DNA of 64,000 nucleotides from assembly GCF_007655135.1 (NCBI RefSeq), contig NC_045127.1, forward strand, positions 25,338,199 through 25,402,198, read 5' to 3'. Shown piece by piece: positions 23,218-39,394 of this stretch. The notes under the pieces were generated by a model. The model did not search any database, was not told the origin of the DNA, and saw only the letters and a program-made list of their open reading frames with translations. The stretch's first letter is position 1. Every line of letters begins with the position of its first letter. This DNA is from Punica granatum (taxonomy: Eukaryota; Streptophyta; Magnoliopsida; Myrtales; Lythraceae). The position numbers were made by a program, and so were the translations under genes.

Positions 23218-23669
23218 ATGGCCGCTTCCGCTTCCACCATGGCTCTATCCTCCCCGTCGCTTGCCGAAACGGCAGTTAAGCTCTCCCCGGAGATCCTCGG
23301 AACTGGCCGGGTCTCCATGAGAAAGACTGTGACCAAGCCTGTCTCATCCAGAAGCCCGTGGTACAGCCCCGACCGTGTTAAGTACTTAGGTCCGTTCTCT
23401 AGCGAGCCCCCGAGCTACATGACTGGCGAGTTCCCTGGTGACTACGGGTGGGACACTGCGGGGCTCTCTGCCGACCCCGAGACCTTCGCCAAGAGCCGTC
23501 AGCTCGAGGTGATCCAGTACAGGTGGGCCATGTTGGGTGCCTTAGGATGTGTCTTCCTAGAGCTCTTGGCCAGGAACGGAGTCAAGTTTAGTGAGGCTGT
23601 GTAATTCAAGGCTTGTGCCCAGATCTTCAGCGAGGGCGGGCTCGACTACCTAGGAAACCCAAGCCTGAT
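23218..23669 (+). pseudogene. LHCB1: LHCB1-type chlorophyll a/b-binding protein, 5' part
   Basis: Encodes the plastid transit peptide (MAASASTMALSSPSL...) and the first part of the mature light-harvesting complex II protein up to helix B/C: RKTVTKPVSSRSPWY, YLGPFSSEPPSYMTGEFPGD, YGWDTAGLSADPETFA, then EVIQYRWAMLGALGCVF. It would act in photosystem II antennae in the thylakoid. Damage: TAA at 23602-23604 where the family has Trp (EAVWFKA), and unusual CVFLELL for CVFPELL. Reading continues in frame after the stop (FKACAQIFSEGGLDYLGNPS) to the CTGAT target at 23665-23669, where Z2 interrupts it. The gene is intronless, as usual for LHCB1. Start chosen by the transit peptide and the AACAATGGC context. 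Confidence 0.92.
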
Positions 23670-23685
23670 TGACAAGGAGTCCAGC

Positions 23686-24393
23686 TGATATGATCCAGTT
23701 AGAAGACCCTTCGCAAGGGCATGAAGAAGAATCCAAGGATGACAGGGTCGGGCATGAAGGCGAGCTTTGGGATAAGCATGTGCCAGCTAGAGCAAGTACA
23801 AGAGCACGAGCCAAGCGAATCCAACAAGTCATGCAAAGGCTGTTATTGCATGTCCATGAAGGAGAAGTCGAGCTCTTGGGCGAGCTGCATGTGCAACAAG
23901 AAGCCACGACCGTTCATATCCTAGAAATCTATTTAGAAGATGATTTCAGTTTATAAGGGCTGAATTTAGTTGTTTTTCAATTACTTGGGCCTATTTCATT
24001 TTTGGGCTCATTACACTTAGGATTTATTTTAGTCCAGTCCAATAGCCCAATTAGGTTATCAACTAGTATTTCTTTATAAATAGGCATGTGGCCTCCCTAG
24101 AGAAGAGAGATCAGTTTTCATTCAACTTTGTGAGAGAGATTTTCTCCGAGCTGTTGCTCAACAACTTTGCGGATATTGCAAGTGTGATAACTTGTGATTC
24201 CCGACAGTTATAATATTGGTTTCTAGCTCTTTATAGTTAGCGAGTCAATATTCCGTTCATAATATTGGTTTGTGGCTCTTTATAGTTATCGGGTCAATAT
24301 TTCCTATTCTTGAAACCTTCATTGGATAATCCCGGGTTTGATCGCATTTTATTGTTGTTAGGTCTCGCAGCAGGTTCGTCGAGGTTCGCATTA
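23686..24393 (+). repeat. LTR X1
   Basis: 708 bp from TGATATGATCCAG to GGTTCGCATTA (CA changed to TA). Its first 270 bp are open in one frame that continues the Pol tail (DKHVPARASTRARAKRIQQ), ending at 23956. A tandem duplication of about 47 bp (TAATATTGGTTT...GGGTCAATATT) lies near 24208-24302. A TATA-like CTTTATAAATAGGC is at about 24070. Confidence 0.9.
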
Positions 24394-25228
24394 TTTTGTA
24401 TTAGAGCTTTGGCTCCAATCCAGGTTTCACCTATCCTATTTCGTTTTTTTGTTATCCATTATTCTTAAGGTTCGTAAATCGTTGATAGAAGTTCTGATTT
24501 TTGTTAGCTGATTCTAATTGTCCTGAAGAACCCTAAAGTTTCAGTTTATCTTATTGGAGATCCAAAAAAAAAAAGAAAATTCGTCCAAAAAAAATATAGA
24601 GAAAAAATAGGAAAAAAAGAAGAAAAAAAAGTTAAAAAAAAGGAAAGAAAATAAAAAAGAAAGGAAAGAGCAATTGTTTGCGAAATCTTAACTTTTGGGG
24701 TGGAAGCAGATTCCTTAGATATCACTGCTAATCAAGTGAAGTAGGAAATTCCAAAAGTTTCCAGTTATTTTCTTCCATATCTGTCATTATTCCTGAATTA
24801 CCTTCCTTTATATATTCTTGTTTACTTTGATGGACCATTGGCATATAAAGTGACGTTGAGACATCAAATATTATTTCCTTTCAATTGAATATTTTCCTAT
24901 CATATTCCTTTCTTGTCTCTTAGAATCATTCATTCCTTCCATTTCGATACTTTCCATAAATCTCTTGTTTCCTTATTCCAACAAATCTTCCTTGTATATC
25001 TCAGTTGTTTCGTTAACTTCATCTACCACATTATTTCCTTTCTCATTTAGGTTTGGATCCTAAATTTGATTCAATTTCTAGAATTAATGATTATAAGTGC
25101 TTTATCAACTGATTTTACTTTTGCAATTGAATTCCTTAATTTCTTAGGAACTTTGAGGAGAAAATCTAGAGAGAAAAAAAAAGGCAAGAGTGGTGAGTAT
25201 ATCAGAGGTTAAAGCCTAAAATTGAGTG
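24394..25228 (+). mobile_element. X leader with decayed primer-binding site
   Basis: TTTTGTATTAGAGCTTTGG at 24394-24412 is the mutated form of TTTGGTATCAGAGCTTTGG, still intact behind X3 (33649-33667). A long A/G-rich tract (24545-24675) follows and then untranslated sequence up to the GAGTG target (25224-25228) of Y. No coding frame. Confidence 0.75.
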
Positions 25229-38300: not shown

Positions 38301-38657
38301 AAGTTGGAAGCTACTAATGCGAAGTACAAGAAGGCCGTTGACAAGTATCATAAGGAGCGACTCTTTTCAGAGGGGGATATGGTGATGATGTTCCTTAGGA
38401 AAGAAAGATTTCCCGTTGGAAGTTATAACAAGCTGAAGCCGAAGAAGTATGGTTCATAGAAGGTGTTGAAAAAGATAAATGACAATGCGTATGTCATAGA
38501 TCTTCCCGAGTCCATGAGTATTTCACGTACATTCAATGTGGCGGACATTTACCCCTACTATGATTCGAATGAGCCATTATATCCTGAGTTCAGCACAAGC
38601 TCGAGGACGAGCATTCCACAAGTGGGGGAGACTAATGAGGAGTCCAACCCAAAGTGA
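35321..38657 (+). pseudogene. Z2 pol pseudogene (PR-RT-RH-IN)
   Basis: Protease reads IIDSESQDNIIG (DSG changed to DSE). RT spans about 36094-36720 with YFDDILIYS near 36540. Stops compared with Z1: TGGTAG for TGGCAG (about 35714), CACTAA for TACCAA (36059), CACTAG for CACCAG (36376), GAGTGA for GAGTGG (36442), CTCATAA (36704). RNase H has GAGTGA near 37100 and CAGTAG near 37204. Integrase (37222-37968) keeps HHCC and MDFILGLP, and at codon level SDRD, but a frame break near 37895 cuts it, and an extra GC lies near 38152. GGTTCATAG at 38458 breaks the C terminus. Dead copy. Confidence 0.9.
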
Positions 38658-39047
38658 CGACCCATATTCTAGAAGACTCTAGTTGCTACTAAAGGAGAAT
38701 ATTGCTATAATATAGTTTCTCTTAATTAGATATTATTTCCAATATTAACTTGAGTCGGCAGTCAGAAGTTTTTTATTTCAGATTATTTCCTTGTTCCATT
38801 TTAGAAAAGTAATCTAGAGGAATTAGATGTCAGTTTTCTATTCTGTAGTTAAGGAATGTGTCTTCTCTCTATATATAGGCTATTCACCTCATTGTAAGAG
38901 GATATATCAGAAACTCTTATTGTTTAATAATACTTTAAGTTTGCACAATTCTTGGTTTTCAGCATATTGCTAGGTTTAAACGTGTGTTATTCCCTTCGAA
39001 TCTAAATTCGGATTTAGACACGAGAAATTGTAATCCGCGCTGCGTCA
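38633..39047 (+). repeat. Z2 3' LTR
   Basis: About 415 bp following the purine run AGTGGGGGAGAC. Starts TAATGAGGAGTCC (TG changed to TA) and ends GCTGCGTCA directly at CTGAT and the resumed LHCB1 sequence. TATA-like CTCTATATATAGGC at about 38867-38880. Confidence 0.92.
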
Positions 39048-39394
39048 CTGATCCATGCCCAGAGCATCTTGGCCATTTGGGCTTGCCAGGTCATCCTCAT
39101 GGGGGCTGTTGAAGGGTACCGCAATACGGGTGGACCACTCGAAGAGGTCGCCGACCCACTGTACCCTGGTGGTAGCTTCGATCCGCTGGGCCTTAACGAC
39201 GACCGAGAGGCCTTTGCAGAGTTGAAGGTGAAGGAGATCAAGAACAGGAGACTTGCGATGTTCTCGATTTCGGGTTCTTTGTGCAAGCCATCGTGACCGG
39301 GAAGGGCCCACTGGATAACTTGGCTGATCACTTGGTTGACCCTGTCAACAACAATGCCTGGGCCTATGCCACCAACTTCGTCCCTGGAAAGTGA
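39048..39394 (+). pseudogene. LHCB1: LHCB1-type chlorophyll a/b-binding protein, 3' part
   Basis: After the second CTGAT the gene resumes as CCATGCCC (IHAQSILAIWACQVILMGAV), then DPLYPGGSFDPLGL, AFAELKVKEIKNRRLAMFS with the chlorophyll-binding E-x-x-N-x-R pattern of the third helix, and ends NNNAWAYATNFVPGK and TGA at 39392-39394. One base is missing after 39268: the family has ATGTTC (Met-Phe) where this reads ATTTC, so the last 40 or so residues are out of frame. IKNRRL also replaces the usual IKNGRL. Together with the 5' stop and the 15.4-kb insertion, the gene is inactive. Confidence 0.92.

Follow-up and report, generated by a model that had tools for sequence, protein, structure and literature searches.

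The window analysed here is a stretch of 64,000 nucleotides of Punica granatum (C1:25338199-25402198), and genome searches covered the 320-Mb assembly of this species. Inside a broken gene of the LHCB1 family lie three long terminal repeat (LTR) elements, named Z2, X and Y, nested one in another, and this nest is real and readable. The layers are placed as follows, with the target site duplication (TSD) of each.

23218..23669, plus strand: LHCB1 pseudogene, part before the nest, recognised by phmmer matches to plant LHCB1 chains, by frame reading and by paralog alignment
23670..39047, plus strand: Z2 with its nested content, interrupting LHCB1; the second CTGAT copy starts at 39048
23686..33732, plus strand: X, a tandem-array LTR element split by Y, with TSD CCAGC, three LTRs, a duplicated internal piece and family copies elsewhere
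25229..31101, plus strand: Y, a Ty3/gypsy-type LTR retrotransposon, with TSD GAGTG and RVT_1, Integrase_H2C2 and rve in order
31102..31106, plus strand: second GAGTG copy, the X internal region continuing behind it
33733..33737, plus strand: second CCAGC copy, right after X
39048..39394, plus strand: LHCB1 pseudogene, 3' part, opening with the second CTGAT, with a 1-nt deletion near 39268, and ending in TGA at 39392-39394

The duplications are readable at three levels, CTGAT for Z2 in LHCB1, CCAGC for X and GAGTG for Y, and for every layer an uninterrupted relative of its site is present in the same genome. Together these bear out the order claimed in a sequence-only reading of this DNA, namely Z2 in LHCB1, X in Z2 and Y in X. 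That reading also claimed a full relative history, of which the part that stands is the order read from the duplications, with which LTR divergence is compatible. Two points temper this picture, in that the divergences leave the order of insertions undecided and the whole analysis comes from one assembly.

When the nest is closed, the joined product aligns with LHCB1 as the same reading had foreseen, the 264-residue query giving a full-length match to 3jcu_G (query residues 4-264, E 7e-146). The claimed return of the reading frame holds for codon phase at the junction but not for an open frame, as a TAA at 23602-23604 (codon 129) and the 1-nt deletion persist; both are independent of the nest. 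In addition, 16 residues that are invariant across 32 LHCB1 proteins are altered. The window copy is thus a pseudogene of the LHCB1 family, its frame no longer open. A caution here is that the simulation of LHCB1 decay takes its rate and spectrum from LTRs, and the gene may differ in both.

The innermost element, Y, has TG...CA LTRs (5' LTR at 25229-26282 and 3' LTR at 30159-31101, both plus strand) and a TSD, and its reverse transcriptase precedes its integrase, with RVT_1 in the open reading frame (ORF) 27688-28479, H2C2 in 28812-29321 and rve in 29261-29845. By its LTRs, duplication and domain order it is a Ty3/gypsy LTR retrotransposon. A solitary LTR of the Y family lies at 21595-22731, upstream of LHCB1 and some 490 bases from where that gene begins; a 190-base stretch is repeated within it, and no matching 5-bp flanks were seen around it.

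Element X is more complex, and its parts, including primer binding site (PBS)-like sites, are as follows.

23686..24393, plus strand: LTR1, then a PBS-like site and leader
31219..31728, plus strand: internal 3' part, copy 1
31729..32433, plus strand: LTR2, the inner LTR
32433..32941, plus strand: internal 3' part, copy 2, in which PBS, leader and the 5' portion of the internal region are missing
32942..33648, plus strand: LTR3
33649..33732, plus strand: right end, with PBS-like TGGTATCAGAGC, leader, and GGTTCG joined to CATCA

At least three LTRs therefore alternate with internal pieces within one TSD, the arrangement of a tandem insertion. LTR2 and the second internal piece overlap by one base at 32433, and the spacing of LTR1 and LTR2 is 2165 bases once Y and one duplicate are subtracted. 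The join of LTR2 to the internal piece (base 100 of a 200-base query) was found in the window only, among the 40 scored of 365 first-look candidates; the other 39 matches break off at base 99 (one), 101 or 102 (34), 104 (three) and 115 (one). The right end was likewise found in the window only, among the 40 scored of 516 first-look candidates, and here the other 39 matches to the 173-base query break off at base 166 (two), 167 (one), 168 (35) and 170 (one), base 168 being where GGTTCG closes. The CATCA at this end resembles the terminal bases of an additional LTR, and the right end may be what a deletion from one GGTTCG copy to another left of such an LTR. A simply longer LTR3, reaching 33732, was set aside because 35 of the 39 scored family copies stop exactly at GGTTCG and the final five bases match an LTR end instead. 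As a source of the right end, an ordinary reverse-transcription jump would be expected to leave a second PBS behind LTR1 as well, and none was seen there. The sole X ORF scanned (31165-31653) had no Pfam match and hence no gypsy coding domain, and X is placed in no superfamily and treated as non-autonomous.

The simplest reading of X is that it inserted as a ready-made array, which is favoured, rather than proven, because the outer LTRs are closer to each other than to the inner one. The Kimura two-parameter (K2P) distance between LTR1 and LTR3 is 0.092, and all three pairs lie at 0.092-0.114 (bounds used: LTR1 23686-24392, LTR2 31729-32432, LTR3 32942-33651, within three bases of the assigned ends). 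Sites at which one LTR departs from the other two number 28 for LTR1, 41 for LTR2 and 30 for LTR3; C>T and G>A account for 48 of the 58 private changes of LTR1 and LTR3 pooled. Compared with 26 family LTRs, retrieved by an LTR2-end query not covering the patch 345-505, LTR2 has the commoner base at 14 of the 41 sites that set it apart (15 with one tie), and the corresponding count is zero for both LTR1 (28 sites) and LTR3 (30 sites). In a quick tree of 43 family LTRs, LTR1 and LTR3 fall in a five-row set (support 95) within an 18-row set (98), with LTR2 outside both. This tree, drawn from 49 loci with exact duplicates and LTR matches shorter than about 600 bases excluded and one C4 LTR entered twice via overlapping loci, favours, without proving, a single retrotransposition event for X over recombination.

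Several observations pull the other way. The LTR1 and LTR3 pair by itself is supported at only 72, and forcing LTR1-3 into one clade costs 36 log-likelihood units (approximately unbiased (AU) test, p 0.057), in a test made after the first tree had been seen, so that an array formed in place is not formally rejected. Moreover, 23 of the 41 private sites of LTR2 are packed into 155 bases, a packing equalled in 0 of 20,000 shuffles, with the width picked after the sites were seen. Because 11 of the 14 family-majority sites sit in one patch of about 160 bp (345-505), later gene conversion of LTR2 could possibly mimic the pattern. A related X-family tandem array at C4:22013801-22023300 also looks to have been amplified in place. 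Five or more LTRs make up this array, the fifth running off the edge of the C4 interval, at spacings of 2131, 2141, 1645 and 1645 bases, so that full units are 2131 and 2141 apart compared with 2165 in X; the last two full units have one common internal deletion, and the LTRs form one clade (99), both as growth in place would predict.

Formation of X in place, after insertion, is accordingly a minority explanation that deserves weighing. It predicts the single CCAGC duplication round the entire array equally well, and the similar distances among the three LTRs, the example on C4 and the AU result all speak for it. It also predicts, however, LTR1 or LTR3 as the source of LTR2, yet LTR2 falls outside both of the supported sets that hold them, and 13 of the 41 private changes of LTR2 are reversed transitions vs 4 of the 58 in LTR1 and LTR3 pooled (Fisher p 0.0022). 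With insertion as a ready-made array preferred for X and growth in place for the C4 array, this high-copy LTR family would be building tandem arrays by apparently two routes. That the nest as a whole is an assembly artefact is highly improbable, since a single assembly and a high-copy X family (the 365 and 516 candidates above) are set against duplications at three levels, an uninterrupted relative for each site, and matched 5-bp duplications that misassembly would not be expected to produce.

LHCB1 DNA matched six genomic places, namely the window copy, C4:32499705, C2:42470864, C4:37334286, C1:5041352 and C1:25336021 (minus strand). Unlike the window copy, which is interrupted by a stop, the C4 gene (C4:32499365-32500159, minus strand) and the C2:42470864 copy are stop-free over the matched length. 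The proteins encoded at C4:37334286 and C1:5041352 are further from LHCB1, and are presumably LHCB2 and LHCB3. A second LHCB1 pseudogene lies at C1:25335677-25336430 on the minus strand (window -2521 to -1768), head-to-head with the window copy and 25 kb off. With several indels and stops it is more decayed than the window copy, from which it differs by a synonymous divergence (Ks) of 0.55, and its coding part holds no inserted element.

Starch synthase 4 (SS4) is the gene that borders the nest on its right side, encoded on the minus strand; a 771-residue query, with exons joined by eye, was 100% identical over 97-100% to five of the six Punica granatum entries listed, and 94% to the sixth. 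LHCB1 and SS4 are apparently close in Craigia (Cryun31cG0048300/Cryun31cG0048100) and Dipteronia (Ddye_024527/Ddye_024522), and in Jatropha each has a match on a scaffold of 560,368 bases, as read in these three genera from locus-tag names and scaffold sizes, not gene maps. The place beside SS4 thus seems to be a conserved LHCB1 place in some other eudicots, and pomegranate appears to have lost both copies there. This apparent loss, while intact LHCB1 persists on C4 and C2, outweighs the nest itself, and so do the two apparent routes of array formation in the X family.

Elsewhere in the window, a large element running from before position 1 to about 13440 has several-kb direct repeats of several kinds (window -1272..2997 vs 7301..13316); inside it, at 6084-6940, units of 29/46 bases form an array. 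A Ty1/copia-type element at 54236-63514, with RVT_2 in ORF 59064-60422, has gap-free 1.89-kb direct repeats that are 94% identical. At the right end, a 27-base tandem array (63522-63765) is about 74% like the 6693-6941 array of the large left element, inverted. Scanning the window with Rfam and ARAGORN gave no matches.

In its alternation of LTRs and internal pieces, with one TSD round the whole, X resembles the tandem LTR-retrotransposon insertions of a rice study, whose account leaves both formation routes open (PMC11899658). It differs from the insertions described there in being old (outer LTRs K2P 0.092), nested and interrupted, in being without some internal stretches, and in the greater distance of its inner LTR compared with the two outer ones. 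Nested LTR retrotransposons have been surveyed in 12 plant genomes (PMC6911290) and, with LTRtype, in Arabidopsis (PMC5379124), and the present nest is like those described in having LTR elements within older ones in several layers. Nests of this type are ordinary in plants. The present nest differs from those described in that its bottom layer is a recognisable photosynthesis gene (PMC6911290, PMC5379124). The target of X, an LTR, also departs from the trend given for the 12 genomes, where LTRs and the integrase domain are the least often hit (PMC6911290). The nest is a textbook example with good controls, every layer being comparable with an uninterrupted relative within this genome.
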